Shown one piece after another: positions 38,005 to 63,655 of a stretch of 64,000 nt of DNA. The DNA comes from a virus: IMG/VR virus record IMGVR_UViG_3300008258_000002, positions 1 through 64,000 of that record, one strand, 5' to 3'. The position numbers were made by a program, and so were the translations under genes. The notes below the pieces were generated by a model that ran no database searches, was not told the origin of the DNA, and was given only the letters and a program-made list of their open reading frames with translations. Each line of letters starts with the position of its first letter. Position 1 is the first letter of the stretch.

Positions 38005-38036
38005 GGGAATAAATAGCCTATCCGTATGGTTATAGA
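38005..38036 (+). promoter_or_regulatory. SigR/SigH-like promoter for the phosphatase
   Basis: GGGAAT at 38005, 18 bases, then GTTATAG at 38029. This is the only plus-strand member of the family and it precedes the only convincing plus-strand gene, which argues strongly that the motif is a directional promoter. A second, TTGACA-type promoter follows at 38067. Confidence 0.7.
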
Positions 38037-38066
38037 TAGAGTAGTGATAGAAAGTAATCTATCTAA

Positions 38067-38098
38067 ACCACTTGACAAATAGTTATCTGTTTGTAATA
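38067..38098 (+). promoter_or_regulatory. Housekeeping-type promoter for the phosphatase
   Basis: TTGACA followed after 16-17 bases by TAATAAT, then a GAAAGGAGTGA ribosome site before the ATG at 38141. It lies downstream of the SigR-like promoter, giving the gene two start signals. Confidence 0.7.
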
Positions 38099-38140
38099 AT
38101 AGTGGTATCACTTATAAACAAACGAAAGGAGTGATTACAA

Positions 38141-38686
38141 ATGACACTACCAACAAGAAATAATCTGTCTGACTTTGAGCGACCACGGCACAATGATTTG
38201 CCTAAATCTCTATGGACTGAAACTTTGCCTGACCTATGGCAAGGTGGAACACTTGATGCTTATGGCAATGAAGACTGGTTTGAGCAAGTAGATGTTATCG
38301 GCAAAGAGATTAGCAAGAAACACTTTGATTGCGTCTATACACTTTACGCAAGTGCTGACCCAGTTGATTGGTTCGTCAAGGAACTTAGGTTCGGCTTCTA
38401 TGATAGTTCGCTAACTGACTTTGACCCAGTAGAAAATCTATTGGACATAGTTAAGATGGCTCATAAAGATTGGAAGTCTGGTAAGAGAGTTCTTATTAGA
38501 TGTCAGGCTGGACTAAATCGTAGCGGTTTAGTTATGGCTTTGGTTCTAATTCGTGACGGCTATGAGCCAGCAGATGCTATCAAACTGATGAGAGAGAAGC
38601 GTTCATCTTGGGTTCTATGTAATAAGAACTTTGAGAGATACTTACTCGGCTTAGATGAAAAGCAGTTAGCAATCTGGAGAAACTAA
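38141..38686 (+). CDS. Dual-specificity/tyrosine phosphatase-like protein
   Basis: 181 residues with the signature VLIRCQAGLNRSGLVMALVLI, i.e. the C-x5-R-S loop of the cysteine phosphatase fold (Cys nucleophile and Arg that bind phosphate). The usual His before the Cys is Arg here. A general-acid Asp may lie upstream around YDSSLTDFD. Similar proteins occur in other actinophages. The enzyme would remove phosphate from protein or other substrates in the host. It is the only convincing plus-strand gene, stands alone with two promoters and a strong terminator, and points away from the head operon, so it is probably expressed on its own schedule. Confidence 0.8.
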   Translation: MTLPTRNNLSDFERPRHNDLPKSLWTETLPDLWQGGTLDAYGNEDWFEQVDVIGKEISKKHFDCVYTLYASADPVDWFVKELRFGFYDSSLTDFDPVENLLDIVKMAHKDWKSGKRVLIRCQAGLNRSGLVMALVLIRDGYEPADAIKLMREKRSSWVLCNKNFERYLLGLDEKQLAIWRN

Positions 38687-38691
38687 GATTT

Positions 38692-38720
38692 ATCCCCTGT
38701 CAATGTGGCAGGGGATTTTT
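38692..38720 (+). terminator. Terminator of the phosphatase gene
   Basis: ATCCCCTG / CAGGGGAT stem with a 9-base loop followed by a T-run (TTTTTC), six bases after the stop codon. The stem is symmetric and may also act on the convergent terminase transcript, which ends just beside it. Confidence 0.85.
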
Positions 38721-38721
38721 C

Positions 38722-40113
38722 TTATCTAACTCTAAAGAAACTACTTCTAGCATCTGGTATTTTACGACCAGCCATAGACTTAGCAGTTAGTTTGCCACCT
38801 ACAAACCCTGCTGGTGGCTTTATCATAAGAGCGGTAAGAGCGTGAACTAAAGCATCTACTCTGTCTGGCGACCTACCCTCACCCGGAACCCAACTTAGCA
38901 TCTGACTCTCTAAGTCAGGTAAGTATCCAATGTGATGGACACGCCCTTGCTCATAGCCAAGCACGACTGGTTCAGCACGAAGTTGCTTTCCGTATTTGCT
39001 ATGGACTTCTAATACTTTGATACTAGGGTCAATGGCGTTGATAGCATTACGAACTAATGCTCCACCTTGATTGACTTCAGCAATAACTGGACAGCCCCAC
39101 TTGCGAGCCATAGCAACTACTCGGTTAGCCCACACTTCAGGCGAACCTAACACGCTAGCATCTTCTAATACCCAAGCCTGACGCTTATACAAATCTCTCT
39201 CACCAGTTGATGCGACTACAACTATTCCGCATTCATCTCTAGGGTTCTCAGCAACGCTAGGGTCAACACCAATACAACGCAGTGGTGTGTTCAGTGGTAG
39301 AGCGTTCTGTCTATGTACCTCAATCAAATCATCATTCCACAAAGCACCCTCAACGCTATCCAACATCTCACCATAAAGTTCCTGTTGAGCAAGACGAGTT
39401 CCAGCATAGACACCCGTAATAGCATCAAGATAAGCAACGCTTAGGTTTCCAGAGTTATCAAGAGTAGAACCACGAGTGATAACTACACGACCAGTGTTCT
39501 TACTTTCTTCTATCAACTTGTAGAGCAATGGAACACGCTTAGGTGTAGTAGTAACCATAATCTGTGGATTACGACCAAGACGAGTTCCTACACGCAAGTT
39601 ATCAAAAGCAGTCATACCTGCTGCGTCAGGTGTCTGTCGCCAAGCAGCAATCTCATCTCCCCAAGCGTGAGTAAATTGTGGACCACGCAAAGAGTCAGGC
39701 TCATCGGCAGTAAAGCAAGTAGCAGTATTTCCATTAGGCCAAGTTAGTCTTCGCTTTGATGGTTCATACAATGGTCTTTCGCTAGGTGGAGATACATTCA
39801 TAATTCCACTCTCACCCTCAACGATTACATCTCGCACATCTGCTGCTGTTCTCGCAACCAAAGCAAAACGCCTTTGACCCGTGTTAGTGTATTTGGCTTG
39901 CTCTCTCACCCACTCGGCTGCGGCACGGGTCTTACCAGCACCACGACCACCAAGATACATCCAGACTGCCCAATCACCTACGGGAGCGTGCTGTTCAGGT
40001 CTGCCCCAGACTGACCAATCCCACATAAGAGTATCGGCATCCATGCCAGATAAGACGAGTGCTCTCTCTGCATCAGGCAGAAGAGCGATTTGTTCCATTA
40101 TAGATTTGGCCAT
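38722..40113 (-). CDS. terL: Terminase large subunit
   Basis: 463 residues from the ATG at 40113 (MAKSIMEQ); a GTG six codons upstream (40131) is the alternative. Walker A is YLGGRGAGKTRAAAEW (near residue 50), Walker B region AWGDEIAAW, and the nuclease domain shows CIGVDPSVAENPRDECG, AEVNQGG and DRVDALVHALTAL with the expected acidic residues. It cuts concatemeric DNA and pumps it through the portal. No Shine-Dalgarno site is visible; instead a TACAAT box lies exactly six bases before the ATG, the spacing expected for a leaderless mRNA. The gene is convergent with the phosphatase. Confidence 0.92.
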   Translation of the reverse strand: MAKSIMEQIALLPDAERALVLSGMDADTLMWDWSVWGRPEQHAPVGDWAVWMYLGGRGAGKTRAAAEWVREQAKYTNTGQRRFALVARTAADVRDVIVEGESGIMNVSPPSERPLYEPSKRRLTWPNGNTATCFTADEPDSLRGPQFTHAWGDEIAAWRQTPDAAGMTAFDNLRVGTRLGRNPQIMVTTTPKRVPLLYKLIEESKNTGRVVITRGSTLDNSGNLSVAYLDAITGVYAGTRLAQQELYGEMLDSVEGALWNDDLIEVHRQNALPLNTPLRCIGVDPSVAENPRDECGIVVVASTGERDLYKRQAWVLEDASVLGSPEVWANRVVAMARKWGCPVIAEVNQGGALVRNAINAIDPSIKVLEVHSKYGKQLRAEPVVLGYEQGRVHHIGYLPDLESQMLSWVPGEGRSPDRVDALVHALTALMIKPPAGFVGGKLTAKSMAGRKIPDARSSFFRVR

Positions 40114-40128
40114 GAATCTATTGTAATG

Positions 40129-40151
40129 CACAGAAAAAATGGCAACCCAGG
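40129..40151. repeat. Copy 1 of a CACAGAAAAA repeat
   Basis: 23-base element CACAGAAAAA-A-TGGC-AA-CCCAGG upstream of the terminase. Near-identical copies lie at 45851-45873 (same strand) and 41989-42011 (opposite strand). Confidence 0.6.
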
Positions 40152-40176
40152 CAAACTTGCCCAGTGGATGGAGATG

Positions 40177-40446: not shown

Positions 40447-40472
40447 ACAAGTATTGTATCGCAGTAAAGTGA

Positions 40473-40498
40473 AAACCCCTGACATTTGTCAAGGGTTT
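40473..40498 (-). terminator. Hairpin shared by terminator and promoter region
   Basis: AAACCC...GGGTTT stem enclosing the palindrome TGACA-TT-TGTCA. On the minus strand it follows the collagen-like gene and precedes the TACAAT box of the next gene, so it may both end one transcript and shape the start of the next. Confidence 0.6.
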
Positions 40499-40523
40499 CA
40501 CTATTGGCGAACAAGTTTCGGTA

Positions 40524-40979
40524 TTACTCAATTACCCTAATCGTGAGCGAGCAATATGGATTACTCTGCCAGTTGTATCTATTAGTTAGAAAAACTGACC
40601 CGTATTGCCAGTTAGTATAAGTAGTTGCTGTTCCAGTGGCTAATCCAACAGAACCATCTCCACAGCCAAGAAGACTTGTACCATTTCCTATGTATTTGAT
40701 TGTGATTAGTTTAGTTTTGATAGAAGCATCTGTGCCTTTAGGTCCAGCGGGTCCTTGAGGTCCAGTTGGTCCTTGAATTCCAGTTTGGTTCCAAGTCAGT
40801 GGTCTTTCGGTCTTAGTACATTTGCTACTTATCCGTAAAGCACCACTTGACTTATTCACACAAGCAGAGATTACAGAGTTTGATTCAACTGCTGAAACTG
40901 ATTGCGATGAAGCAGAACCTAATAAGAACGCACCTACAAGTAAGTTGATTACCAGAAGCACACGATTGGATGTGCTCAC
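40524..40979 (-). CDS. Secreted protein with short collagen-like segment
   Basis: 151 residues from a GTG that overlaps the upstream stop (TAGTG). Residues 1-28 form a signal peptide or anchor (VLLVINLLVGAFLLGSASSQS). Next comes ISACVNKSSGALRISSKCTK, a Cys-containing motif common in actinobacterial surface proteins, and then a short G-x-x run (GPTGPQGPAGPKG). The C-terminal 75 residues form a beta domain with three Cys. It probably sits on the host surface or in the virion; in other phages similar collagen-like proteins are fibres. No close function is known to me. Confidence 0.65.
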   Translation of the reverse strand: MSTSNRVLLVINLLVGAFLLGSASSQSVSAVESNSVISACVNKSSGALRISSKCTKTERPLTWNQTGIQGPTGPQGPAGPKGTDASIKTKLITIKYIGNGTSLLGCGDGSVGLATGTATTYTNWQYGSVFLTNRYNWQSNPYCSLTIRVIE

Positions 40980-41527
40980 TACCTTGAGTGTCTGTTCTTA
41001 GGATTGATTGGTGTATATACTCTGCTCTGACCCTTTTCGCTTGTCTTGTATCCATAGCGAGCAAGTCTGAAACGAAGTGCTGAGTGAGTAACTCCCATAC
41101 GCTTAGCCAATCGATATAGCGTAACGCCATCTTCCAAGTGAGCCTTAGCAATTAGTTGAGTGTACTCTTCAGCCTCTGCTCTGAAGCGAGTGGCGTGTGA
41201 GCGAACCTGCATTGCCATCGGCTTTAGTTCCAACAATCTTGCTAGGATTTCAGGCGATGGCTCAACAAACTCTCTTTCCACTTTTGCTGGATACATCGGT
41301 GGAGTTGGGTTAGTGAAGTCAGGTGGCATTGGTCCATCAATTGGTGTTTCACAAATCTGACGAACACGCTCTCTACTGAGTTCAACTGAGCGAGAGATAG
41401 CACTTAGTGTCCATCCATTGTTACTCAATGAACGAATTATGTTATCTCTATCTGCTGGCTTAGCGGAATTGAGCAATGAAGTGATGTAAAACGGCAACTT
41501 TTGATTTGCTTTCTTTATCTTTGTCAT
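40979..41527 (-). CDS. DNA-binding protein with two HTH motifs
   Basis: 182 residues from the ATG at 41527; an upstream TTG extension (to 41611) is less likely because it has no ribosome site. Residues about 30-60 (LSAISRSVELSRERVRQIC) look like a sigma-type HTH, and 140-165 (VTLYRLAKRMGVTHSALRFRLARYGY) like a Myb or resolvase-type HTH, with a Pro-rich linker between. The same plan is seen at 36702-37226 across the phased-repeat region, so it may be a paralog binding related DNA sites. Possible role: regulator or packaging factor. Confidence 0.65.
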   Translation of the reverse strand: MTKIKKANQKLPFYITSLLNSAKPADRDNIIRSLSNNGWTLSAISRSVELSRERVRQICETPIDGPMPPDFTNPTPPMYPAKVEREFVEPSPEILARLLELKPMAMQVRSHATRFRAEAEEYTQLIAKAHLEDGVTLYRLAKRMGVTHSALRFRLARYGYKTSEKGQSRVYTPINPKNRHSR

Positions 41528-41632
41528 TTCTTCTTTTATCTTTCTATGTAATGACCCGTATGGGTCTGTGGTTTCTATTGAAATTGTATCTGTAATACAA
41601 ATGTTATTCAATTGTGTTTGCTATTGGAATAA

Positions 41633-41971: not shown

Positions 41972-41988
41972 TTCAACTCCTGTTTTAC

Positions 41989-43400: not shown

Positions 43401-43580
43401 CTAGTGTCCTTTCGTCTTTAGGTGTTGTATCTTTACAACAAGATAATCATAGGCATATCCTATGACATTTGTCAAATACCTTTTTCGGTGTTTCTTGCGT
43501 GGAAACTTAGTTGATTGCCACTGAGCCCAGTGAGCAACTTTAAATGCTATTCCACTAATCCAGTGTAGTAGGCGGTACAT
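43401..43580 (-). CDS. Small basic hypothetical protein (59 aa)
   Basis: Starts MYRLLHWISGIAFKVAHWAQWQ with a good AAGGGAGAAG ribosome site at the end of the upstream gene, which it overlaps by 26 bases in another frame. Hydrophobic-aromatic N-terminus, very basic middle (KFPRKKHRKRYL). The frame is also open upstream, but the ribosome site favours this start. The promoter of the next gene lies inside its 3' half, so the C-terminal part may be constrained by DNA signals rather than protein. I recognise no family. Confidence 0.45.
   Translation of the reverse strand: MYRLLHWISGIAFKVAHWAQWQSTKFPRKKHRKRYLTNVIGYAYDYLVVKIQHLKTKGH
43446..43475 (-). promoter_or_regulatory. Promoter with TGACATTTGTCA palindrome
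   Basis: TTGACA, 18 bases, TATGAT for the gene at 43162-43398. The -35 hexamer is half of the palindrome TGACA-AA-TGTCA, also present at 40481 and 47530, so a repressor or activator may bind there. Confidence 0.65.
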
Positions 43581-44746: not shown

Positions 44747-45571
44747 TTATCTTGTAGTCCAATTTACATCTGGATAATTACGCTTGTTCTTTTTGATTTG
44801 AGCATCGGCTTTGGCTTGGATTAGAATTCTCTGCTCCTCAACCGAAGTTCCTCGCTTGTGTGCCAAAGCAACCAAGATGGTGTCAAGTGACTCTTGGCTA
44901 CGCTCAATCTCTTCAGGTGTGCGACCCATGCTTTGAATACCAACTAGCATATTGACGGCAATTGACTGAGCAGTACGCTCTGCCTTGACCTCAGTCTTGT
45001 ATCTGCTAAATGCGTATTCAAGCACTACTAGCGGTGTGCCATCTGGATTCCAGATACCAGTCTTCAAACGCTTAGCCTCAATCTCAGCCTTACGAACCTG
45101 ACGAAGACGGCGTGCCTCTACTACCTCTGGGTCTTCCAACTCGCATTGTCTGAGGAAGTAAGCAGATGGGGCGTGAGCATAGCAAACAGTACAGGCTTTC
45201 TCGCCAGCAAGAAACGCAATCTCAAGTTCATCTCGACCTGACATCTCGGTAAGCCAAACATACTGAGTAGTAGGAAAGCAGGTTCCGCAATTACGACTCT
45301 TGTGAATGTGCCCATTGCTATTCCGCACAAGGTAGGCACGGGACCATCCTGTGTAGAGTGCCTTGAGGGCTGCCAGTTTTTCCTTGTCGACGGCAAGTTC
45401 TTTTTCGAGAGCATCTCGTTTGATTTCTTTTTGCTCCACTTCTTTGCCCATCCAAGAGTGCTTCTTGTTGTACTCGATTGACTGATTCAGTGAGTGGATG
45501 CTTATGTTCTTTGACTCAATAGACGCAAGTAGTTCTGCGATTTGTGTGTCAATAATAATCGGTGTAGTCAT
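44747..45571 (-). CDS. Conserved actinophage-type protein with zinc-knuckle region
   Basis: 274 residues. Residues 10-70 form a coiled coil. The middle (about 77-135) has SRAYLVRNSNGHIHKSRNCGTCFPTT, WLTEMSG and AGEKACTVCYAHAP, with Cys/His spacing fit for one zinc site. The C-terminus is helical and charged. Proteins with this middle are frequent in actinophages but have no assigned role as far as I know. Its start overlaps the stop of the upstream membrane gene (TAATG), so the two are coupled. Confidence 0.65.
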   Translation of the reverse strand: MTTPIIIDTQIAELLASIESKNISIHSLNQSIEYNKKHSWMGKEVEQKEIKRDALEKELAVDKEKLAALKALYTGWSRAYLVRNSNGHIHKSRNCGTCFPTTQYVWLTEMSGRDELEIAFLAGEKACTVCYAHAPSAYFLRQCELEDPEVVEARRLRQVRKAEIEAKRLKTGIWNPDGTPLVVLEYAFSRYKTEVKAERTAQSIAVNMLVGIQSMGRTPEEIERSQESLDTILVALAHKRGTSVEEQRILIQAKADAQIKKNKRNYPDVNWTTR

Positions 45572-45780
45572 TATCTTCTGCTCCTGACATTTCTACGAAG
45601 AGCCAGTGGTCTGTTCTGCCAAGCAAAGATGAGCCCAGCAAAACCCCCAACTACAAGAGTGATTGATGATAGGAGTATGGCTAACTTATCGGCACTGATT
45701 GACAGTGTGCCAGCCTTGATACTGAGCCCCAAAGCAAGTAGCCCCAGTCCCAGTGGTATTGAAACAATCATTGTTTTCAT
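45571..45780 (-). CDS. Small two-segment membrane protein
   Basis: 69 residues with two hydrophobic helices (MIVSIPLGLGLLALGLSI and AILLSSITLVVGGFAGLIFAW) and a basic tail (LRRNVRSRR), the layout of a class II holin. The NlpC/P60 wall hydrolase gene lies next upstream, which would suit a lysis pair, but they are separated by a terminator and a promoter. It has its own SigR-like promoter and a GAAAGGAT ribosome site. Confidence 0.6.
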   Translation of the reverse strand: MKTMIVSIPLGLGLLALGLSIKAGTLSISADKLAILLSSITLVVGGFAGLIFAWQNRPLALRRNVRSRR

Positions 45781-45806: not shown

Positions 45807-45833
45807 AACTAAAACTTATAGGAATTTATTCCC
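45807..45833 (-). promoter_or_regulatory. SigR/SigH-like promoter P1
   Basis: GGGAAT-N18-GTT on the minus strand, then TATTGA; serves the membrane protein gene at 45571-45780. A TTGACA overlaps just upstream of the GGGAAT. Confidence 0.6.
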
Positions 45834-47512: not shown

Positions 47513-47542
47513 AATCTACACAACGGCACTGACATTTGTCAA
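47513..47542 (-). promoter_or_regulatory. Promoter with TGACATTTGTCA palindrome
   Basis: TTGACA, 18 bases, TAGATT for the zinc-knuckle gene. The -35 forms half of the same TGACA-AA-TGTCA palindrome as at 43464 and 40481. Confidence 0.65.
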
Positions 47543-49288: not shown

Positions 49289-49491
49289 TAGTCCCACACT
49301 TCCAATACTTCTACATCGGTATCAACTAACTTGTGATTAGATAAGTCAAAACCATCTTCTTCTTTTATGCGTTCTATCGCCAAGTCAATAATTTCTTCTT
49401 GGTCAGTTGTCGGTGTTGTAACACTCGTAATGTAACTCGTAGAGTTTGTGGTCAGAGTGACTGTATAAGTTGCTGATGAATAGTTATACAT
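49288..49491 (-). CDS. Small hypothetical protein
   Basis: 67 residues; a Thr/Ser/Tyr-rich beta-like N-terminus (SSATYTVTLTTNSTSYITS) and an acidic C-terminus. Its start overlaps the end of the DUF4314 gene by eight bases and its stop overlaps the next start. I recognise no family. Confidence 0.6.
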   Translation of the reverse strand: MYNYSSATYTVTLTTNSTSYITSVTTPTTDQEEIIDLAIERIKEEDGFDLSNHKLVDTDVEVLEVWD

Positions 49492-49699
49492 TATCCACCA
49501 CTTCCGTAATCTCTCTCCAACTATCTCCCGAACCTTCGATAAGACTTAGGTTAGAGCCATTGTCCCATTGCACTACAATTGTTCGGTATCCCCAAGGGTC
49601 AATGTATTCCATCACCTTAGTTCCTAATGCACCCTTAGTTAGATTTGTATAAGGGTCGGAAGTAGAAATCAGTTCTACTCTTATTTTTGTTTTTTCCAT
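49484..49699 (-). CDS. DUF4314-like small beta protein
   Basis: 71 residues with the DUF4314 pattern: IRVELISTSDPYTNLTKGALGT, then VVQWDNGSNLSLIEGSGDSW. The fold is probably a small SH3-like barrel. Members are common in actinobacterial and Gram-positive phages; function unknown. It is the first gene of a five-gene overlapping set and follows promoter P2. Confidence 0.75.
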   Translation of the reverse strand: MEKTKIRVELISTSDPYTNLTKGALGTKVMEYIDPWGYRTIVVQWDNGSNLSLIEGSGDSWREITEVVDNV

Positions 49700-49731: not shown

Positions 49732-49758
49732 AACTAAAACGGCAGACATTTTATTCCC
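49732..49758 (-). promoter_or_regulatory. SigR/SigH-like promoter P2
   Basis: GGGAAT-N18-GTTATAGT on the minus strand, driving the five-gene set 48494-49699. The GGGAAT overlaps the stop codon of the upstream membrane gene. Confidence 0.7.
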
Positions 49759-49930
49759 TGTTTCCAAACAGATACACTACACAGCCCACAAACCCAGAGA
49801 AGAAAAGCAAAAGCCCAGCCCATAGAGCAGGTAAGTTTCCACCAAAGATAAAGGCGTGTCCGAGTTGGTCGGTGATGCGAAGACAATTCCAAAAACACCA
49901 CATACCTAGCAAAGCAATAACAATTTTCAT
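49751..49930 (-). CDS. Small membrane protein
   Basis: 59 residues from the ATG at 49930 (MKIVIALLGMWCFWNCL), chosen for its AAAGGAGAAC ribosome site. Two membrane helices flank a short loop (DQLGHAFIFGG) and the protein ends YLFGNRE. It has its own promoter at 49972-49999. Function unknown. Confidence 0.65.
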   Translation of the reverse strand: MKIVIALLGMWCFWNCLRITDQLGHAFIFGGNLPALWAGLLLFFSGFVGCVVYLFGNRE

Positions 49931-50706: not shown

Positions 50707-50940
50707 TTAGTTTGCCTCGTCTTTGTGAGTAAAGAAAGCGTTTGAGCATTCAACGCACATACCAAGTTCTTCGGCGTGTGTATCTGCTTCTATCTTCTCC
50801 CCGCACTTATCGCAAGGCAATAGTCCACCATTGATTAGTTGCTCCAAAGCGTGCAACGCTTCATCGGCGTTAGTTGTCCCATTGTGATAATCGGTGTAGA
50901 TAGCCTTTACTGCTTGCTCTTCTACTGCTGTTAGTTCCAT
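50707..50940 (-). CDS. Zinc-ribbon protein
   Basis: 77 residues. A helical N-terminus (TAVEEQAVKAIYTDYHNG) is followed by two CxxC pairs (LPCDKCGEK and GMCVECSNAF). SigR-like promoter P3 lies upstream within the terminator of the preceding unit. Function unknown. Confidence 0.7.
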   Translation of the reverse strand: MELTAVEEQAVKAIYTDYHNGTTNADEALHALEQLINGGLLPCDKCGEKIEADTHAEELGMCVECSNAFFTHKDEAN

Positions 50941-50972: not shown

Positions 50973-50999
50973 AACCGAACCCCCTGACAAATTATTCCC
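50973..50999 (-). promoter_or_regulatory. SigR/SigH-like promoter P3 inside a terminator hairpin
   Basis: GGGAAT-N18-GTTATTATT on the minus strand. The GGGAAT lies in the loop of a stem CCGAACCC / GGGTTCGG (50975-51010) that ends the gene at 51018-51287, and the -10 region doubles as the T-rich tail. Confidence 0.7.
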
Positions 51000-51017: not shown

Positions 51018-51287
51018 TTAGATAAACAACTGCTGGTCGACCATCTCCATCACAAAATCCAAATCCCGGCCCTCTAAGTCTTCTTCTATGTAAGTTGAGA
51101 AGTCGTAAGTTCCATCTTGGTTTGAGGTAAAGATGTTGACGATAGTTGTGTCGTGTTGCCAAGTTGCTAGGTCGCCATCGGTGTTCGCACCAATAATCGC
51201 ACCCCAATACTTAACAAGGTCACTCGGCGTAAGTTTAGTTTGTGGAATACCACCAACAACTTGTTGCCCCGCGTCATTTAGTTCCAT
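51018..51287 (-). CDS. Hypothetical protein
   Basis: 89 residues from the ATG at 51287 (MELNDAGQQVVGG), chosen for its AAAGGTGG ribosome site. Acidic, with LTPSDLVKYWGAIIG and a C-terminal DLDFVMEMVDQQLFI. I recognise no family. The leader, including the GTGATTACT spacer before the ATG, is nearly identical to that of the gene at 51590-51763. Confidence 0.65.
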   Translation of the reverse strand: MELNDAGQQVVGGIPQTKLTPSDLVKYWGAIIGANTDGDLATWQHDTTIVNIFTSNQDGTYDFSTYIEEDLEGRDLDFVMEMVDQQLFI

Positions 51288-51315: not shown

Positions 51316-51342
51316 AACCCCCGCCCCCGACAAAAACTTCCC
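51316..51342 (-). promoter_or_regulatory. SigR/SigH-like promoter P4
   Basis: GGGAAG-N18-GTTATTATA on the minus strand, upstream of 51018-51287. The spacer is strongly G-rich. Confidence 0.65.
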
Positions 51343-51589: not shown

Positions 51590-51763
51590 TTACTTTGCTA
51601 TTGTGTCGCACCCGGGGTCGCCACAACCGCATTCATCACTACAAACATTGTAGGTTTCGCAGTCGTGGGTTTCGTAAATCTTTACTTCGGTGCTTGGGTC
51701 AAATAGGTTTCCGCAACCCCCGCACTCAATAAAGGCTTCGCCCTTGCTGTTTAGTATCGGCAT
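51590..51763 (-). CDS. Cys-rich zinc-binding miniprotein
   Basis: 57 residues from the ATG at 51763 (MPILNSKGEAFIECGGCGNLF). Eight Cys in pairs: ECGGCG, DCETYNVC, DECGCGDPGC. It probably binds one or two zinc ions. Promoter P5 precedes it; the ribosome site is GAAAGGAAG. Function unknown. Confidence 0.65.
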   Translation of the reverse strand: MPILNSKGEAFIECGGCGNLFDPSTEVKIYETHDCETYNVCSDECGCGDPGCDTIAK

Positions 51764-51795: not shown

Positions 51796-51821
51796 AACGG
51801 ATAATCCCCCGTATTTATTCC
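51796..51821 (-). promoter_or_regulatory. SigR/SigH-like promoter P5
   Basis: GGAAT-N18-GTTTATG on the minus strand, for the Cys-rich miniprotein. It lacks the first G of GGGAAT. Confidence 0.55.
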
Positions 51822-51993
51822 TGTCGTTATCAAATCATTATAATAATCTCCAAACGCAACAAACTTCTTGACGCAAAGATTCCCGTGATGCAGAAGAAAT
51901 TCCAGGTCCCCTGGGTTTCCATGCACACGGCAGGAAACTTTCGCACCCTCCATCCGAGTTGCATCCGAGTTGCAGAAGCAGATTAAATAGAAA

Positions 51994-53179: not shown

Positions 53180-53326
53180 TTAGTCGTCTATGTCCGCACC
53201 GCAGTTTGAACAAGTAGCGAAGTCGTGACCCTCACCGTCATTGAGCGCAAGTTCGCACTCGTCACAATGTAGCCACAGGTAGTCGGCGTTACAGCAAGCC
53301 GACTTAGGTTCGGTGTTGGTAGCCAT
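53180..53326 (-). CDS. Zinc-ribbon miniprotein (48 aa)
   Basis: Starts MATNTEPKSACCNADYLWLHC; CC, HCDEC and TCSNCGAD supply the metal ligands. The start overlaps the stop of the DUF6011 gene (TAATG) and a terminator follows. Function unknown. Confidence 0.65.
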   Translation of the reverse strand: MATNTEPKSACCNADYLWLHCDECELALNDGEGHDFATCSNCGADIDD

Positions 53327-53784
53327 TAGACCCTACCCGCACAAACCGGGCCGATACCCTGAGCAACTGATACAGGGTCGGTAAGGAACTTACCGCACCA
53401 TACGCAGAAACCGTATTCAACGCCAAAGGCTTTCGCCTCTTCAATAGTCATACGCATTTCGGCAGTTAGACCACGCATAGCGCCCTGCTCGTAGATGAAC
53501 TTGCGTTCAGCAACATCAAGGACTTTTGCGTAAAGGTTGCCTGTCTCTCGACTTGCTTGAACCTTGTAGATAACGCCATTGGCGTTGCGATACATACCTT
53601 CAGCAACAGGGGCGTTGTTGCGTGGGGCGGAGATTAGCGAACCAATAAGGTCGCTGGCTTGCTTAGAAGTGAGAGTGGCAAAATCAACAACAAGGTCGTT
53701 TGCCCTTTCGCTAATAAGGGTTTTGAGAAAAGCAACCTGCTTTTCAGAGGCCGGGCGAGCCGGGGTGGGTGATGTGATAGTCAT
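53326..53784 (-). CDS. DUF6011-containing protein
   Basis: 152 residues from the ATG at 53784, chosen for the AAAGGAGGT ribosome site. Residues 12-30 (ASEKQVAFLKTLISERA) form a helix seen at the start of related proteins; the C-terminus FCVWCGKFLTDPVSVAQGIGP matches DUF6011, a short Cys-containing domain with the GIGPxC ending. Frequent in actinobacteria and their phages; function unknown. Promoter P6 lies upstream; coupled to the zinc-ribbon miniprotein. Confidence 0.75.
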   Translation of the reverse strand: MTITSPTPARPASEKQVAFLKTLISERANDLVVDFATLTSKQASDLIGSLISAPRNNAPVAEGMYRNANGVIYKVQASRETGNLYAKVLDVAERKFIYEQGAMRGLTAEMRMTIEEAKAFGVEYGFCVWCGKFLTDPVSVAQGIGPVCAGRV

Positions 53785-53811: not shown

Positions 53812-53838
53812 AACAGGTCGCACTGACTTTTTATTCCC
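53812..53838 (-). promoter_or_regulatory. SigR/SigH-like promoter P6
   Basis: GGGAAT-N18-GTTATAGT on the minus strand, for the DUF6011 gene. Confidence 0.7.
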
Positions 53839-54395: not shown

Positions 54396-54770
54396 CTAGA
54401 TAGCCTTGAAAGTGATGTTGCCTGTCCCAACAGGCTCATCATGAGAATAGCGAACCAATACCAACTCGCCATTGGCATAAGTAAATACCAACTTGAAGTC
54501 GCCATTGAGCGAGAACCTCTTGATTAAGTCATCAGCGTTGAACGCCATAACAAAATCGCCAGATACTCTACGCCAAGATACTCCCCTGTATTCAACCTGA
54601 ACCTCTGTCTCATCTGTCCAGCCTTTATCAGCCTGAACCTCTTTAACAAGTAAGTCCAAGTCATACTTGGAATCATCCCAACAACCAAAACACTCTTCAA
54701 TGAAGTTGTCATCTTCATCAACGCAAGTGCAGTCGCTGTTAAGCGTGACTTTTGTCTCTAAGTTATCCAT
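54396..54770 (-). CDS. Hypothetical protein
   Basis: 124 residues. An acidic Cys-containing N-terminus (SDCTCVDEDDNFIEECFGC) may bind metal; the rest alternates beta strands (EVQVEYRGVSWRRVSGDFVM). I recognise no family. Promoter P7 precedes it. Confidence 0.65.
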   Translation of the reverse strand: MDNLETKVTLNSDCTCVDEDDNFIEECFGCWDDSKYDLDLLVKEVQADKGWTDETEVQVEYRGVSWRRVSGDFVMAFNADDLIKRFSLNGDFKLVFTYANGELVLVRYSHDEPVGTGNITFKAI

Positions 54771-54795: not shown

Positions 54796-54822
54796 AACCC
54801 AATACATTACTTTTTTATTCCC
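54796..54822 (-). promoter_or_regulatory. SigR/SigH-like promoter P7
   Basis: GGGAAT-N18-GTTATTATT on the minus strand, for the gene at 54396-54770. Confidence 0.7.
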
Positions 54823-55236: not shown

Positions 55237-55389
55237 TTAGTAAGCGTTCACATACATAGCCAGCGAGTTATCTAGGCTGTGCTTAGATGAGTTGAATAGT
55301 TCAACAAAGGCGTTAGCCTCATCTAGCGTAGCGAAGAAGTGATTACCCACATTGACATTGCCAATGTGTATCTCTACTTTATGGTTCAT
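55237..55389 (-). CDS. Small hypothetical protein (50 aa)
   Basis: Starts MNHKVEIHIGNVNVGNHFFATLDEANAFV; it looks like one beta hairpin followed by a helix with F-A-T-x-x-E-A, the same mini-module pattern seen in the 4108-residue protein. AGGAGGTGG ribosome site, promoter P8 upstream. Function unknown. Confidence 0.6.
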   Translation of the reverse strand: MNHKVEIHIGNVNVGNHFFATLDEANAFVELFNSSKHSLDNSLAMYVNAY

Positions 55390-55412: not shown

Positions 55413-55439
55413 AACTCCAACCCCAGACAAAATCTTCCC
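55413..55439 (-). promoter_or_regulatory. SigR/SigH-like promoter P8
   Basis: GGGAAG-N18-GTTATTGTA on the minus strand, for 55237-55389. Confidence 0.65.
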
Positions 55440-56120: not shown

Positions 56121-56444
56121 TTAGTTTATCGCTCTGATGAACTCGTAAGAGCCGTCAACTGCGACTGCGGTGTAGACCTCTGGAAACTCCGCTTGAAGTT
56201 TCTTAAGGTCTGGTCTGTCCATAATTACCTGCATCATTTTGAACGCCTTTTGTCCGCTAATGGTAGCGAACTCTGCGTCACCGAGAGCAAGTCTTAAGAC
56301 TTCCTCAGCCTCTTCTTTGGCTTTGTCGGCTAACTTCTTAGCCTCCAGAGCCTCGCTGAACTTGTCCAATGCAACTCGGACATTGTGGTCAAAACCAACT
56401 TCTACGGTCTTGCCCTTGATTATGTTTGTTAGTGGCTTTTTCAT
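56121..56444 (-). CDS. Hypothetical coiled-coil protein
   Basis: 107 residues. A basic start (MKKPLTNIIKGKTVEVGF), a long charged helix (EALEAKKLADKAKEEAEEVLRLALGD) and a C-terminal beta/helix part (FKMMQVIMDRPDLKKLQAEF). It resembles small proteins in phage recombination or early regions, but I cannot name a family. Promoter P9 lies upstream. Confidence 0.65.
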   Translation of the reverse strand: MKKPLTNIIKGKTVEVGFDHNVRVALDKFSEALEAKKLADKAKEEAEEVLRLALGDAEFATISGQKAFKMMQVIMDRPDLKKLQAEFPEVYTAVAVDGSYEFIRAIN

Positions 56445-56501: not shown

Positions 56502-56527
56502 AACCTACAACACTGACATTTTATTCC
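56502..56527 (-). promoter_or_regulatory. SigR/SigH-like promoter P9
   Basis: GGAAT-N18-GTTATAGT on the minus strand, for 56121-56444. Confidence 0.65.
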
Positions 56528-56561
56528 AAAACGCCAAAGTTTTTTGTTCGCTCTAAGAGAA

Positions 56562-58093: not shown

Positions 58094-58399
58094 CTACTTT
58101 ATGTCGTAGGACTCGCAGATTTCGGCAACTGCGTCATTGAGAGCGTTGACGAGTAATGAAATCTCGTTGTCGTTTAGGTGCTCAACCATTTCTGCCAAAA
58201 CAGTTGACTGCCAAACAATCCCAGAAACTTCCCTGAGTTGCTTTTTGTAATCTGCGAAAGCCTCGTTCATTCCACACGCAGAACAGATTTCTGTTTTGTT
58301 ATCCTTGCGTGAGATAGCACCGGGGTATGCTCCGGGAGTTTCGTTGTTCGGAATCTGCCCATCACAAGTTGGGCAAGGGTGGGTTCTGTTGTCAGTCAT
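58094..58399 (-). CDS. Zinc-ribbon protein
   Basis: 101 residues: CPTCDG and EICSACGMNEAFADYKKQL form a zinc ribbon in the first 50 residues; the C-terminal half is helical (VLAEMVEHLNDNEISLLVNALND). Its start overlaps the upstream stop (TAATG). Function unknown. Confidence 0.65.
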   Translation of the reverse strand: MTDNRTHPCPTCDGQIPNNETPGAYPGAISRKDNKTEICSACGMNEAFADYKKQLREVSGIVWQSTVLAEMVEHLNDNEISLLVNALNDAVAEICESYDIK

Positions 58400-58728
58400 T
58401 ATTTCACCTCGTTGCTTATGAAGTTGTATGCGTGGTTTGCGAAAGTCTCGGAGTCGCTCTTAAAGAACAATGTTTCTTCGTTCTTTAAGTCTTCTTCGAT
58501 ACAGGCAGATAGAACTGCTACGCGAGCAAGAGCAAGAGAAAGAGTTGCGTAAAACTCGTTCCACTCATTTACTACATAGTCAGTCCATTGAAGACGATAA
58601 ATAGCCTCGCCCTCAGCGTTAGCGAAAGAGTCAATGGTGACTCCTGATTTACCAGCCAAGTCAAACTTGATTGGGGTTGTTAGCAACTGAGCCTTTGCTG
58701 ACTCAGTGTGGATTCCTAGTCTTTCCAC
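58399..58728 (-). CDS. Hypothetical protein
   Basis: 109 residues (MERLGIHTESAKAQLLTTPIKF). Mixed alpha-beta, with YRLQWTDYVVNEWNEFYATLSLALARVAVL. I recognise no family. It is first in a two-gene unit under promoter P10. Confidence 0.65.
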   Translation of the reverse strand: MERLGIHTESAKAQLLTTPIKFDLAGKSGVTIDSFANAEGEAIYRLQWTDYVVNEWNEFYATLSLALARVAVLSACIEEDLKNEETLFFKSDSETFANHAYNFISNEVK

Positions 58729-58765: not shown

Positions 58766-58792
58766 AACTATGATTATTCAGGATTTATTCCC
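58766..58792 (-). promoter_or_regulatory. SigR/SigH-like promoter P10
   Basis: GGGAAT-N18-GTTATAGT on the minus strand, for 58399-58728 and the coupled zinc-ribbon gene. Confidence 0.7.
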
Positions 58793-58809: not shown

Positions 58810-59094
58810 TTAACTATTTTTCAAGACTTTTTCTGTGTAGCCTTTGTCAATCTTTTCGTAGAACTTATCCCAAGCAAAAGCAACTGCCTCCTGCTCTGTC
58901 GCAAAAATCTTTTCACTGCCCATCCAAGAGTTAGGTGCTTCTTCTCTGCCCCAAGACATAAAGACGCACCAACGCCCTGTGGGGTTTAACTGCCTTATGT
59001 AAATCATGTAGGCTTTTCTAGCCCCATACTGCCCACGCTGTCCCTGTGAACGCTTTACTAGGGTTACCTTTGGAAAAAGAGTTGAGTATTGCAT
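58810..59094 (-). CDS. WGR-domain-like protein
   Basis: 94 residues from the ATG at 59094 (MQYSTLFPKVTLVKRSQG), chosen for the GGAGACC ribosome site. It resembles the WGR domain: YIRQLNPTGRWCVFMSWGREE, then a Ser/Phe strand (SEKIFATEQEAVAFAWDKF) and the closing EKIDKGYTE. WGR domains bind DNA ends or nucleic acid in PARP enzymes and some bacterial regulators. A free-standing phage WGR protein, in a genome with multiple ADP-ribosyltransferases, is notable. The Trp-Gly-Arg triad is intact. Promoter P11 precedes it. Confidence 0.65.
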   Translation of the reverse strand: MQYSTLFPKVTLVKRSQGQRGQYGARKAYMIYIRQLNPTGRWCVFMSWGREEAPNSWMGSEKIFATEQEAVAFAWDKFYEKIDKGYTEKVLKNS

Positions 59095-59135: not shown

Positions 59136-59162
59136 AACACACTACGCTGACATTTTCTTCCC
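59136..59162 (-). promoter_or_regulatory. SigR/SigH-like promoter P11
   Basis: GGGAAG-N18-GTTATCTT on the minus strand, for the WGR-like gene. Confidence 0.65.
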
Positions 59163-59836: not shown

Positions 59837-59848
59837 TCTTGCCAGCCC
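59824..59848 (-). terminator. Hairpin after the VWA gene
   Basis: GGGCTGGC / GCTAGCCC stem (one G-T pair), 9-base loop. No long T-run; it includes a GGCTAGCCGTT repeat unit. Confidence 0.55.
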
Positions 59849-59867
59849 CTACTTCTACACGAGCCGA

Positions 59868-61763
59868 TTAGACTCGTGAGCCGATTGCCGAGACCACTTT
59901 GGCCGCGGTCTGTCCGATTACCTGCGCTGCTTTGACTGGCGACTCGGTGCTGTTGAGCGATACAATCTCGCCACTTGTTCCGTCTAGGTATGACTTAGCG
60001 TAGCCAGTCTTACCGTCAAATGTCAGCCACAAGATAGCCACGCCCTTACGGTCAGCCTCTTTGAGCAACTGCTTGGCGTATGCTTGCTGGTCGCTACGGT
60101 ATCTACCGTCAGAAACAACTACGAGCAATCTCGCACCGTCTCCACTGGTTAGACCCAAGCCACTGTCAAGAGCCTTGAACGCTTTGGCAAACTCTTCGGT
60201 TGAGTCGGTGGCAGTGAAAGTCTTCACTTTGTCCAACTTCTGTCCCGGCTTAAGAGTGGCAAATACATTCTGACCGTAATAGACCATTGCACACTTGCCC
60301 TGAATCCTACGAACTGCCTCTGACATAATCCACGCAGTAATGCCCATTGGTTGCATTGCTGGTTTCATAGAACCAGAAATGTCCACCATAACGCCAACCT
60401 TTAATGTTGGGTCTTCTGTTTGCTTACGCTGTGTGCGTCTCCAAGTTTCAATCGGAGATACAACGCCCTTAGCCTTAAGAGCCTCACGCTGAACAACTGC
60501 ACGAGAACGCAAGCGACCTGGTGGAACAACGCTACCAGCACGAACTTGTGAACGCTCACGATACTTTGCTTTACGCAAAGCGTTAGCAACTTTGTTGGCT
60601 GCTGCCAGTTCTTCTGGCTTAGGTGAGCGAGAGTCTTGAAGAACAGAGTTGGTTCTAATTCCAGTTATGTGAGAACCAGCAGAGAAAACTTCGTCAGCAA
60701 TCTTGTCACGATGTTTCTTTTCTTCGTGTGCTTTGTCTCTTTGCTCGACTTCTTCTTTGCGTTCATCCATGTCAATCTCGTCATTGATGTCGTCTTGGTT
60801 GGCAATCTGAACAATGTCTTTCATTTCTTCAACTGCGTCTTTGACTTGCTCAATGAACTTCTTGAACTGCTTGACTTGCTCGTCAGTAGGTTCGTTGCTT
60901 GGTGTAGGTGTGCCATCCTCGCTCGGCTTTGATGTGCCCGGTTCTGGTGTGCCACTCTCTCCACCCGGATACTCGCAACCACCTTTTGGTGTTTCAGTTG
61001 GTTTCTCGCCAACTTCATCTTTGCGTGCATCAAGAACTTCAATGAAACGATTTGTAAGTTCGTAAAGTGGTAATGCGTTTTCGTGGTCGCTGTGTGCTTG
61101 GAACTCTTTCCAGATTTCACGCAACTGGTCAATGGTCTCTTTACCAAGAACCTCGTGCAGGATTTCCATAACAACTTCTGGAACATCATTTGCATCCAAA
61201 ACGCCAGCGTCTACTCTCGCAAGAGTGAGCAGAGCAGTAAAGGCAGCAGCGTCTACTTTTGAAACATTTTTAACTTGCTCGTCAAGTTCTGCCATAACGA
61301 TTTCCATTGCACAAGCACGAAGTAGCAATCTGTTCTCTGGAACAAATACGCAACCCCAATACTCAATGCGACCCTCTTCCATAGCATGCAAGAAACGCAA
61401 GTGTCTTGCATCTAAATCTTTTGCTGCTTGCTCTAATGACCAGCGAGAAATCCTAGCGTGGAGTGCCTCGTGGAAAATAGCACCAGTAGCAGTTGGGTGC
61501 TTAAGTTGATTTTTTCGGTGTGTAAGTTCGCCAACTTCTTTTGGCTCAACATTGCCAAACGCTTTGCTGATACAAACTTCAATCTCTGCTGTGGCAGGAT
61601 TGAAACACGCAGGTGCACCAATGGTGGTGTCCTCAACTAGACCTACAACTAGGTCTTGGCGTAGCGACCATTTGTTGACAATCTTGCCAACGCTGGCATT
61701 GACTTTCAACCAGTCAGGGTGGGTGCGACCAATGGTTTTGGTGCTTACTTTGTAGTGGCTCAT
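59868..61763 (-). CDS. VWA-domain protein with HEALH metallopeptidase-like region
   Basis: 631 residues. N-terminal part (60-200): ATGAIFHEALHARISRWSL holds an HExxH zinc motif, followed by EEGRIEYWG. Middle (260-360): acidic and Pro/Ser-rich linker and charged helices. C-terminal part (430-631): VWA fold with MIDAS motif GVMVDISGSMKPAM and LLVVVSDGRY. This is the CobT/VWA partner of MoxR-type ATPases; the ATPase gene is next upstream. Such pairs remodel or insert metal into protein complexes; in actinophages they are common but their target is unknown. It has its own promoter P12. Confidence 0.8.
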   Translation of the reverse strand: MSHYKVSTKTIGRTHPDWLKVNASVGKIVNKWSLRQDLVVGLVEDTTIGAPACFNPATAEIEVCISKAFGNVEPKEVGELTHRKNQLKHPTATGAIFHEALHARISRWSLEQAAKDLDARHLRFLHAMEEGRIEYWGCVFVPENRLLLRACAMEIVMAELDEQVKNVSKVDAAAFTALLTLARVDAGVLDANDVPEVVMEILHEVLGKETIDQLREIWKEFQAHSDHENALPLYELTNRFIEVLDARKDEVGEKPTETPKGGCEYPGGESGTPEPGTSKPSEDGTPTPSNEPTDEQVKQFKKFIEQVKDAVEEMKDIVQIANQDDINDEIDMDERKEEVEQRDKAHEEKKHRDKIADEVFSAGSHITGIRTNSVLQDSRSPKPEELAAANKVANALRKAKYRERSQVRAGSVVPPGRLRSRAVVQREALKAKGVVSPIETWRRTQRKQTEDPTLKVGVMVDISGSMKPAMQPMGITAWIMSEAVRRIQGKCAMVYYGQNVFATLKPGQKLDKVKTFTATDSTEEFAKAFKALDSGLGLTSGDGARLLVVVSDGRYRSDQQAYAKQLLKEADRKGVAILWLTFDGKTGYAKSYLDGTSGEIVSLNSTESPVKAAQVIGQTAAKVVSAIGSRV

Positions 61764-61804
61764 TTCTGAACTCCTTTTCTTGTTACTACTACTTTACTGT
61801 ATAA

Positions 61805-61831
61805 AACTAAAAAATGTCAAGATTTATTCCC
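61805..61831 (-). promoter_or_regulatory. SigR/SigH-like promoter P12
   Basis: GGGAAT-N18-GTTTTATA on the minus strand, for the VWA gene; a TTGACA overlaps the spacer. Confidence 0.6.
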
Positions 61832-61844
61832 AGATTTTTAGGGT

Positions 61845-61885
61845 GTGTGTGGGGCGGAAATCTAAGGGTAAGCCACCCCACACAC
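61845..61885 (-). terminator. Terminator of the MoxR ATPase gene
   Basis: GTGTGTGGGG / CCCCACACAC perfect 10-bp stem with a 21-base loop, just after the stop at 61903. Confidence 0.75.
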
Positions 61886-61902
61886 GAGCCAAAATCGGAG
61901 AC

Positions 61903-62937
61903 CTAGATTTTGGCTGGCTTGAACTCTGTGCCATAGACACGAGTAAATACATCAGCGACAATCGCTCTGTCTTCAACTGGTGCTTGGGCAATCAAGTTAG
62001 AGACTGCCCAGTCTGCACCAAGTTCAGCAGAGATGTCTCTGTAATCTAGCAACTCACGCATTTGTGGTGACCAGTTGACTTCATCAGACTGTTGCTTTTT
62101 GGCTAGGTTCTGTGCACAAGTTACTGCTTGTGCTGGAACTCCTAACTTACGAGCAAGTGTCCAGTCAGTAGTCATTTCTGCTTGAATACCAAAGCGAGAG
62201 AGTAGAGCCTCAGAAAGATTTACTCCGGGAGCGTTAGGGTTAGTAGCAGCCACCACGAAGAAACCATCCTTAGCCTTAACGATTGCTCGTTCAGGGTTGG
62301 CAGTTACTTTGAGTTCTCTACGACCATCCATAAGACCATAGACGACTGAAAGAACTTTGGGGTCAATCAAACCAATCTCGTCAATCAGTAGGACTTTGCC
62401 CTCTTCTGCTGCTCGCACTAGCGGCCCATCCACCCACTCAAAGCCACCAGCGATTGTTTGAACATAGCCACCAACTAGGTCGCCAACTTCGGTGTCGCCA
62501 GTTCCAAGAACTGTGATTAGGTCGTCACCAAAAGCACCTTCAAACATTGCTGTCTTTCCAGTGCCCGGTGCACCATAAAGCAAGATTGACTTTCCAGTCG
62601 CACTTGCTCGCTGGCTACGAGCAACTTCAACATCTGTGTGTTGCCCCCACTTACGAGTGAAGTATTTCTGTCCATTAGGGCGAACATAAAAACTTTCACC
62701 AGCAAGAGCGTCGACTTGCGTCACTTGAACTCCTGCTTTCTCAGTGTTGGCGTTATCACGATTGCGAATAACTGCTTTACCTGCTGTCTCGTCATAACCT
62801 AAGTTTAGGTCAGATGCGACAACTGGATTTAGAACTTGCCCAACAACTGCGCTGAGCATGACTGGTAGGTTCTCGTGAATCCTACGCTGGTTTTCAACCC
62901 ACTCTTGTGAGGTTGGATTTGTGTTTGGTGTAGTCAT
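61903..62937 (-). CDS. MoxR/CobS-type AAA+ ATPase
   Basis: 344 residues. Walker A LLYGAPGTGKTAMFEG (about 115-130), Walker B VLLIDEIGLIDPKV, sensor 1 VVAATNPNAPGVNL, arginine region ALLSRFGIQAEM. The helix-2 insertion pattern (TGDTEVGDLVGGYVQTIAGGFEWVDGPL) is that of MoxR and CobS. It works as a hexamer with the VWA protein downstream. Transcribed from P13 with the gene at 62952-63506. Confidence 0.9.
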   Translation of the reverse strand: MTTPNTNPTSQEWVENQRRIHENLPVMLSAVVGQVLNPVVASDLNLGYDETAGKAVIRNRDNANTEKAGVQVTQVDALAGESFYVRPNGQKYFTRKWGQHTDVEVARSQRASATGKSILLYGAPGTGKTAMFEGAFGDDLITVLGTGDTEVGDLVGGYVQTIAGGFEWVDGPLVRAAEEGKVLLIDEIGLIDPKVLSVVYGLMDGRRELKVTANPERAIVKAKDGFFVVAATNPNAPGVNLSEALLSRFGIQAEMTTDWTLARKLGVPAQAVTCAQNLAKKQQSDEVNWSPQMRELLDYRDISAELGADWAVSNLIAQAPVEDRAIVADVFTRVYGTEFKPAKI

Positions 62938-62951
62938 TTTGGTTGGTCTCC

Positions 62952-63506
62952 TTATCTTGCTACGCCGGGAGTTACTGGTGTCAGGGTGACAACAGTTGGT
63001 GTTGCAGGTGCTACTGGTGCAGGTGCATCAAATAACGCCTCTGGGAAATTAAACGCTTTACGAGAGCGTTCAATCCTACGAACAAGTTCGTTTGAAGTCT
63101 TACCAGATTTGATAAGTTCAACATCCTTGTAAGTTGCCTCAACTGTGATTGGTTGCTTGAACAACTTCCAATCTCTGTGAATAAGTGAGTCAATGGTTTT
63201 TGAAACTAATCTGTGTAGGTGTGTAGCAGAAATGTGCTTTACACGATTTAGGTCAGTCTCTTGCTGGAACTCGCCACTCGCTTGACGAGGTAGAACGAAG
63301 TCCCCAGTTGTTGGAACTGATGAAAAGTTCCAGTTCTTGCGTGGATGCCAAGACGAAAGTCGTCTCTCCATTACACAAGCCGGGATTACCCCACCTTCAG
63401 CGTTAGTCGCTGGTGGCGTGATAACCATTTGGTAGGTGTAGTTGTCTTTGCGGAACTCTAAATAGAGTGCCTTGCCAACTACTGTTTTTTCTGTGTTTGC
63501 GTTCAT
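62952..63506 (-). CDS. Hypothetical protein of the MoxR-VWA operon
   Basis: 184 residues, basic, with LSSWHPRKNWNFSSVPTTGDFVLP and ELVRRIERSRKAFNFPEALF, and a Pro/Val/Thr-rich tail. I recognise no named family. First gene of the operon with the ATPase 14 bases downstream, so it may be an adaptor or substrate of that complex (inference). Confidence 0.65.
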   Translation of the reverse strand: MNANTEKTVVGKALYLEFRKDNYTYQMVITPPATNAEGGVIPACVMERRLSSWHPRKNWNFSSVPTTGDFVLPRQASGEFQQETDLNRVKHISATHLHRLVSKTIDSLIHRDWKLFKQPITVEATYKDVELIKSGKTSNELVRRIERSRKAFNFPEALFDAPAPVAPATPTVVTLTPVTPGVAR

Positions 63507-63629
63507 TTGGTCTCTCCTTATCTAAAACGCTTTTTTGTATCTACTATCAACAATAGTGATTTTCACCACTTTGTCAAGTCCATTTCCAAAACTTTTTTTG
63601 GGAGTGTTTTTCGTTGATACACAGACTAT

Positions 63630-63655
63630 AACACCAAGTGTTCGTCATTTATTCC
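63630..63655 (-). promoter_or_regulatory. SigR/SigH-like promoter P13
   Basis: GGAAT-N18-GTTATAGT on the minus strand, upstream of a second TTGACA-type promoter, for the MoxR operon. Confidence 0.65.

Follow-up and report, generated by a model that had tools for sequence, protein, structure and literature searches.

The window analysed here comprises 64,000 nt of the 82,164-base virus record IMGVR_UViG_3300008258_000002. Its subject is a set of fourteen promoter-like sites, GGAA[TG] and GTT separated by 18 bases, which resemble the promoters of the actinobacterial thiol-stress sigma factor SigH (SigR in Streptomyces), a member of the extracytoplasmic function (ECF) class. The portal protein and the AAA-ATPase have their closest phage record in Actinomycetia phage DSL-LC01 (73% and 69% identity), described in the available text of PMC10611076 as a metagenome-assembled lake phage with Actinomycetia as predicted host. 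Judged by these proteins, the virus of the window is a relative of this actinophage. All fourteen sites are located within 38-64 kb. The genes downstream are small and their function is mostly without known match; domain matches were obtained for a dual-specificity phosphatase, a VWA protein (weak match), a WGR-domain protein and proteins with DUF4314 and DUF6011. Going by genome position alone, their expression probably falls in the early or middle phase of infection.

With the core written as GGGAATA-N17-GTT, the minus-strand sites occupy 45807..45833, before gene 45571-45780; 49732..49758, before the DUF4314 gene 49484-49699; 50973..50999, before gene 50707-50940; 51316..51342 (GGGAAGT, the weakest, score 14.1), before gene 51018-51287; 51796..51822 (AGGAATA and GTTTA), before gene 51590-51763; 53812..53838, before the DUF6011 gene 53326-53784; 54796..54822, before gene 54396-54770; 55413..55439 (GGGAAGA), before gene 55237-55389; 56502..56528, before gene 56121-56444; 58766..58792, before gene 58399-58728; 59136..59162 (GGGAAGA), before the WGR-domain gene 58810-59094; 61805..61831, before the VWA (CobT-like) gene 59868-61763; and 63630..63656, before gene 62952-63506. 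The plus-strand site, 38005..38031, precedes the dual-specificity phosphatase gene 38141-38686. The initial annotation had listed these fourteen sites and all were re-found, GGAAT of the plus-strand site starting at 38006 and its preceding G being 38005. It was also right that the gap between GGAA[TG] and GTT is exactly 18 bases (14 of 14) and that the second box is nearly always GTTAT (12 of 14, the exceptions being 51796 and 61805). GGAA[TG] is present in every site, the preceding base being G in eleven, T in two and A in one.

Such a set is not expected by chance. GGAAK-N18-GTTAT occurs 12 times in the window against a mean of 0.21 in dinucleotide-shuffled sequence, and none of 100 shuffles reaches 12. 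Nine matches to the looser GGAAK-N18-GTT are treated as background outside the set, because 23 were found where 4.58 are expected. When the gap was varied from 8 to 30, GGAA[TG]-Nk-GTTA[TC] gave 12 matches at k=18 and 0-2 at every other k, and among all pairs of 5-mers and 4-mers with gaps of 13-22, GGGAA-N19-GTTA ranked first on the minus strand. A held-out weight matrix, built only from 16 sites of a related contig (G003, described below), was run on the 82,164-base record; 13 window sites score above 21 and 51316 scores 14.1, the next distinct hit being 8.7, and no further strong site beyond the fourteen was found in the record with this matrix, whose raw counts include one-base-shifted copies of sites and a copy of 63630 in an overlapping stretch. 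Thirty Markov shuffles gave a mean of 0.17 hits above 16.

Each site precedes a gene in the right direction, as had been claimed: in 14 of 14 cases an open reading frame (ORF) of at least 50 aa follows on the same strand, its Shine-Dalgarno sequence counting four bases or more. If transcription began at motif position 37, the leaders would be 14-48 nt long for 12 sites, 114 nt for 63630 and 100 nt for 38006. Four of the fourteen sites (49732, 51316, 56502 and 59136) overlap a mechanically listed ORF. Two of the overlapped ORFs are antisense, the one at 59136 is that site's own gene with its start placed at an upstream TTG, and ORF 49751-49930 ends inside the 49732 site.

The set recurs in related phages. 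The viral contig G002 (135,336 bases) encodes an ATPase 100% identical to that of the window and carries the same 12 GTTAT-type sites, and the second contig, G003 (135,069 bases), is related at 82%. For G003, 16 of 21 pattern matches were used, those at 64307, 69769, 74079, 88889 and 97814 being dropped as coding-like; the spacing is 18 in 14 of the 16 and 17 in two. In the ATPase tree, the window-type clade (L018, L022, L024-L028; support 100/100) is sister to L029/L030 (pairing 85/92). No loci other than L018-L025, L027 and L028 gave three or more matrix hits above 13; there is a single hit in L026, and the remaining 69 loci have none or one. Homologues of 10 of the 14 downstream genes exist in the G003 stretches, and a SigH-like site lies within 190 nt upstream of seven of them, including those of the 45807 and 50973 genes; by the pattern used, three are without. 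The homologues of the 49732 and 38005 genes lack a site, and that of the 63630 gene, counted among the three, has G003 sites 159 and 236 nt upstream that were missed by pattern or distance. The spacing at 58766 is 17 in L022 and L024, and 59136 reads GGAAC in L026. As far as sequence can establish it, the set of fourteen, with its spacing, its placement before genes and its conservation in related phages, is real.

The 14 window sites and the 16 of G003 were aligned, with the GGAA and GTT columns fixed by the search and one gap given to the two spacing-17 sites. The consensus over these 30 sites is [G/T]GGAA[T/G]A-A-W-W, a weak TGTC, GTTAT-W-N-T, and then T-R-T-A about 9-12 nt past GTT. G or T precedes GGAA in 27 sites, position -31 is T in 26 and G in 4, and the next base is A in 27. 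When sites were picked on [GTA]GGAATA[AT]3 alone, without GTT, GTT was in place in 23 of 26, and the three picks without it (10613, 21368 and 28811) are all outside the early region. An A-rich stretch lies upstream, with TTGNC about ten bases before GGAA in 12 of 30 sites by a strict pattern. The earlier observation that most sites lack a TTGACA was borne out: at 16-18 bp from the -10, the best identity is 1-3 of 6 in 29 of 30 sites (2-3 in 27) and 4 in one, no better than random best-of-three identities, which are mostly 2-3 of 6. The exception is a separate overlapping promoter at 61805, a sigma-A-type TTGACA-N18-TAAAGT at 61791..61820 on the minus strand. In addition, inverted repeats like GTTCGCTCTGGGCGAAC, followed by an A-run, were seen just upstream of 54796, 55413, 56502, 59136 and 63630, and similarly in L100; they are perfect at some sites and imperfect at others, and are not ordinary terminators.

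The relatives, and some promoters of the window, use a sigma-A-type form, TTGACAAATGTCAG-N10-TANNNT. In the window this form remains on the minus strand at 47513..47542 (TTGACAAATGTCAG-N10-TAGATT) and 43446..43475 (TTGACAAATGTCA...TATGAT). Eleven TTGACA-TGTC promoters were found in L029, typically TTGACAAATGTCAG-N10-TACAAT, with CATAAT or TATACT in some. There TGTC starts 16 bases before the -10 hexamer, and it does the same in the GGGAAT sites where TGTC is present; therefore the two types can be aligned base for base. Among 11 loci searched, 37 TTGACA-TGTC sites were found, of which four were dropped for want of a usable -10. GTT stands in register in 1 of the remaining 33, against 23 of the 26 GGAATA-picked sites (Fisher's test, 4e-12), a contrast weakened in that the test treats related sites as independent and in that GTT was allowed at spacing 17 or 18 in the GGAATA set and only in the best -10 register in the sigma-A set. 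Given these proportions, the -35 box and the two bases before the -10 appear to have changed together, and a joint change of both boxes relative to the relatives' sigma-A-type promoters is what a sigma switch predicts.

The same change can be followed at single genes. The window reads GGAATAAA...GTTATAGT upstream of the 53812 gene, as do G003, L022 and L025, and L026 and L027 carry the sigma-A-type TTGACAAA(A)TGTC...TATACT. At the 56502 gene, both promoter types stand in tandem in L027, and L026 has kept GTTACTAT but not the GGAA box, with a promoter of sigma-A type closer to the gene. For the VWA gene, examined in 36 loci, L018, L022, L024, L025 and L027 have SigH boxes superimposed on a TTGAC promoter of sigma-A type; a TTGACA promoter without SigH boxes is present in L026, L029, L031 and L080, and the others have neither. 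The loss of the -35 box in L026 suggests that sigma assignment is still turning over.

The TTGAC...TGTCA arms around GGGAAT, which form an inverted repeat in some sites, might alternatively mark an operator or RNA element and not a promoter. By eye, pairing between the two GGGAAT flanks was seen at 56502 and a few others, and the relatives' sigma-A-type promoters carry a tighter TTGACA-AA-TGTCA repeat. We nevertheless find this explanation scarcely credible, since the conserved part is the centre together with GTT and the predicted starts give 14-48-nt leaders with a Shine-Dalgarno sequence for 12 of 14 genes; an operator element may moreover coexist with a promoter. The hairpin promoter or palindromic operator was likewise given up as a candidate in its own right, the TTGAC and TGTCA arms being less conserved than the centre, and survives only as this rival.

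Other repeated elements were noticed in the relatives. In DSL-LC01 (L098 24285-40583) there are at least 15 near-identical elements CTAAAG..GTTATAAT.GAATC, apparently before genes and mostly preceded by GATT, which gives a GATTCTA/TAGAATC palindrome around TATAAT. In L033 (9445-19411) and L047 (7271-19287) different promoter repeats were seen, namely TGTACA-N17-TATAAT, which is often part of AAATGAAGTGTACATTTGCTTCA, and TTTCCAGAGTTTATATAATG. A further element, AAGGGT..TTTTCCACGCA in L031 and AGGGGT..TTTTCCAAGCG in L036, occurs on both strands, with some copies just after T-runs; the related AAGGGT..TTCCATG is found in L029.

The available text of PMC3489674 gives the SigH consensus of C. glutamicum as [GT]GGAATA-16-19-[CT]GTTGAA, that of M. 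tuberculosis as [GT]GGAA[CT]A-16-[CG]GTT, and the SigR consensus of S. coelicolor as GGGAAT[GC]-16-[CG]GTTG; in that of PMC10012870, trxB1 and mshC have GGAATA-N17-GTT and rshA has GGAAGA-N17-GTT. The phage sites share with this class the -35 [GT]GGAA[TC]A, with rshA as precedent for G at -31, the spacing GGAAT-N18-19-GTT and the -10 core GTT. The initial annotation had equated the form with the SigR/SigH consensus, which holds for the -35, the choice of T or G at -31, the A next to it, the spacing and GTT, but not for the bases after GTT. The flank of GTT was treated as non-essential because the bases past it vary among the sigH promoters listed.

SigH itself is common among the actinobacterial genomes sampled. 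The model SigH_actino (TIGR02947) is over its cut-off in all seven actinobacterial genomes reached via MetK and in 25 of the 26 sampled genomes no larger than 1.9 Mb, these 26 being all of that size among the 78 of 394 genomes that match a phage tmRNA end; SigH would therefore be a widely available partner. Just two SigH_actino matches were obtained in 17 of the 26, with a model that does not list every sigma factor. As stand-ins for the host, 27 sigH loci were used (L199, L200 and L209-L233), without L234, which fell below the cut-off. In 15 of the 27, [GT]GGAA[TC]A-N17-GTT stands on the sigH strand no more than 320 nt upstream of the gene, and one more match is at N20, so that 15 of the 16 upstream matches are at N17; elsewhere in these loci, on both strands, the gaps are 15 (two), 17 (five), 18 (eight), 19 (three) and 20 (one). 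In the lowest-GC loci, L229 and L232, the upstream site reads GGGAATAAA, as in the phage. In eight small genomes, 26 matches beginning GGGAATAAA have gaps of 15 (two), 17 (13), 18 (nine) and 19 (two), in a post-hoc count where several look orthologous to one another. [GT]GGAAGA-N17-GTT is found near the sigH 3' end in five loci (L199, L224-L227), comparable to the rshA promoter of C. glutamicum. In L217 and L228-L233, ATG or GTG lies about 8-10 nt past the GTT of the SigH-type site upstream of sigH, possibly a sign of leaderless initiation and of a SigH form extended at the N-terminus.

Which sigma factor would read the sites was suggested earlier to be either a host ECF sigma or one of the phage's own encoded outside the window. 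The form of the sites favours host SigH, and the second option found no backing: Sigma70_r2 was matched in none of 18 related records, two of them of 135 kb, although records may be incomplete, and Sigma70_r4_2 was over its cut-off in none of 14, with weak matches below it in four. Because no sigma region-2 gene was found in these 18 records, host SigH is the likeliest and most economical reader. A divergent phage-made sigma or sigma-region-4-like protein could still be imagined to read GGGAAT-N18-GTT, and its obvious candidate is the double-helix-turn-helix protein encoded at 40979..41611 (minus strand) near the terminase, which has a region-4.2-like helix, almost invariant as [ST]RER[VI]RQ, and reaches 24.6 bits for Sigma70_r4 against a cut-off of 24.1. 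Two Planktophila phages, according to the available text of PMC10202952, do encode their own sigma-70 together with WhiB. We regard this origin as distinctly improbable, because the protein, recognition helix included, is conserved in relatives without GGGAAT sites, because no region 2 was found, as described, and because a new sigma need not copy the SigH consensus. The protein occurs in 14 of 88 phage loci scanned (also at L100 15877-16476 and in L113, L114, L065, L067, L070 and L062); it is a possible regulator, not the determinant of the switch, and its target could be the TTGACA-AA-TGTCA inverted repeats in promoters of this family.

Other candidate readers were dropped. WhiB genes were found in 16 of 19 records, and since relatives lacking GGGAAT sites are among these, WhiB cannot alone explain the switch. 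A virion RNA polymerase was considered from the crAss-like and N4-like models. Beside the portal gene, two giant proteins of 4108 and 3229 aa are encoded on the minus strand at 11069-23395 and 24023-33712, with matches only to ParB-like and ADP-ribosyltransferase-like (DRAT) domains, and a single DxDGD-type motif is weak evidence either way; these giants resemble polyvalent injected proteins.

We therefore consider it likely that the fourteen sites are SigH/SigR-class promoters, with GGGAATAA at -35, GTT at -10 and N17 between GGGAATA and GTT, read by host RNA polymerase with host SigH. The agreement in form with SigH promoters and the coupled replacement of sigma-A-type boxes can be read directly from the aligned sequences. 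In this proposal, each site would drive a single gene or a short operon in the non-structural region. The clade would have started from sigma-A-read promoters TTGACAAATGTCAG-N10-TANNNT; replacing the -35 by GGGAATAA and the two bases directly ahead of the -10 hexamer by GT would have moved the promoters to SigH, with the spacer TGTC and the TATWNT -10 often retained. The phage would then depend on SigH free of its anti-sigma factor, released perhaps by infection-induced thiol stress, or kept partly active in streamlined hosts. Some sites, above all 61805, may remain readable by sigma-A. On balance, we think it more likely than not that a concerted change of boxes took about fourteen genes of this lineage out of housekeeping sigma control and placed them under the thiol-stress ECF sigma of the host, so that part of the infection would run only with SigH released.

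Several observations weigh against this proposal. At the -10, A28 is present in 25, T29 in 27 and T32 in 23 of the 30 sites, so that a sigma-A-like TATWNT persists; T27, A28 and T32 occur together in 19, and the mean identity to TATAAT is 4.3 of 6. The sigH promoters listed from the stand-in loci do not show this TATWNT. The phage sites are mostly GTTAT-W-N-T, unlike the GTTG(AA) of the class: GTTA is found in 25 of 30 and C before GTT in one, so that the flank [CGT]GTTG(AA) of SigH is missing. Twelve of the 27 sigH loci have no upstream site, and GGGAATA-N15-19-GTT, counted over the whole of eight small genomes, showed no excess (102 against 110 for the reversed control). Distant relatives use other, sigma-A-like promoters. 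The genes that might have pointed to a host did not. G002 encodes a tmRNA (L118 8972-9311, tag AESRSAFALVA), whose matches in the 394 genomes are confined to the last 26-31 bases, and a gene labelled MetK from its own sequence (L118 14539-15810), for which no near bacterial relative was found among genome contigs (best 62-63%) or the 394 genomes (58-64% among the matches listed). Finally, SigH is normally bound by an anti-sigma factor, and no gene of this phage is known to us that would release it, no search aimed at one having been made.

The persisting TATWNT also underlies the alternative that the initial annotation had named, a sigma-A -10 with a new -35 box. It could be that sigma-A still reads the -10 (TATAGT or TATTAT), with GGGAATAA bound by a phage activator that takes the place of the -35 contact in the manner of MotA. 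The conserved A28 and T32 speak for such an activator, as do the -10 register, which is the same as in the relatives' sigma-A-type promoters, the joining of TATAAT to lineage-specific boxes in other relatives (GATTCTA...TAGAATC in DSL-LC01, for example) and the two WhiB genes in each of G002 and G003. It leaves unexplained, however, why GT precedes the -10 hexamer in sites chosen without GTT, together with GGGAAT, and why both boxes and their spacing match those of SigH; a gap of 18 bp, rarely 17, is no obvious requirement for an activator. We therefore consider the activator rather unlikely, and prefer host SigH as the reader.

Phages are known to use the host sigma-A, to alter the RNA polymerase or to bring their own sigma factor. 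If SigH reads these sites, they would be phage promoters assigned to a host alternative sigma, and no report of phage promoters read by a host ECF sigma was found in a literature search made mostly without subscription journals; the available text of PMC10986025 and PMC6338062 has nothing on phages. The timing of infection would thereby be tied to the redox state of the cell through a host ECF stress sigma. Since orthologous genes of sister phages still have the sigma-A form, each promoter offers its own test of the switch, and the evolution of sigma specificity becomes open to direct testing.

Among known systems, T4 MotA acts at the T4 middle promoters, where it replaces the -35 contact. Those promoters resemble the present ones as a phage set that combines a good -10 with an unusual box around -30/-35; here, in contrast, the -10 flank is changed too, the boxes match a host ECF class and no activator is known. 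The Planktophila phages E7 and F5, as far as the available text of PMC10202952 goes, are also actinophages with WhiB that may steer host transcription through the choice of sigma, but they have their own sigma-70 gene, of which none was found in the 18 records here. The sigma-A-type promoters of the sister phages (L029, L030, L031, L036, L090 and some of L026, L027 and the window) are in the same gene region and have TGTC at the same distance to the -10, and differ in having TTGACA where the GGGAAT sites have GGGAATAA. The SigH promoters of Corynebacterium and Mycobacterium and the SigR promoters of Streptomyces share with the phage sites the -35 [GT]GGAA[T/G/C]A, the N17 from its A to GTT, GTT at the -10, and the preference for T with tolerance of G at -31. 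In contrast to them, the phage sites have an A-rich stretch upstream, in some cases TTGNC, and drive phage genes and not those of thiol stress.

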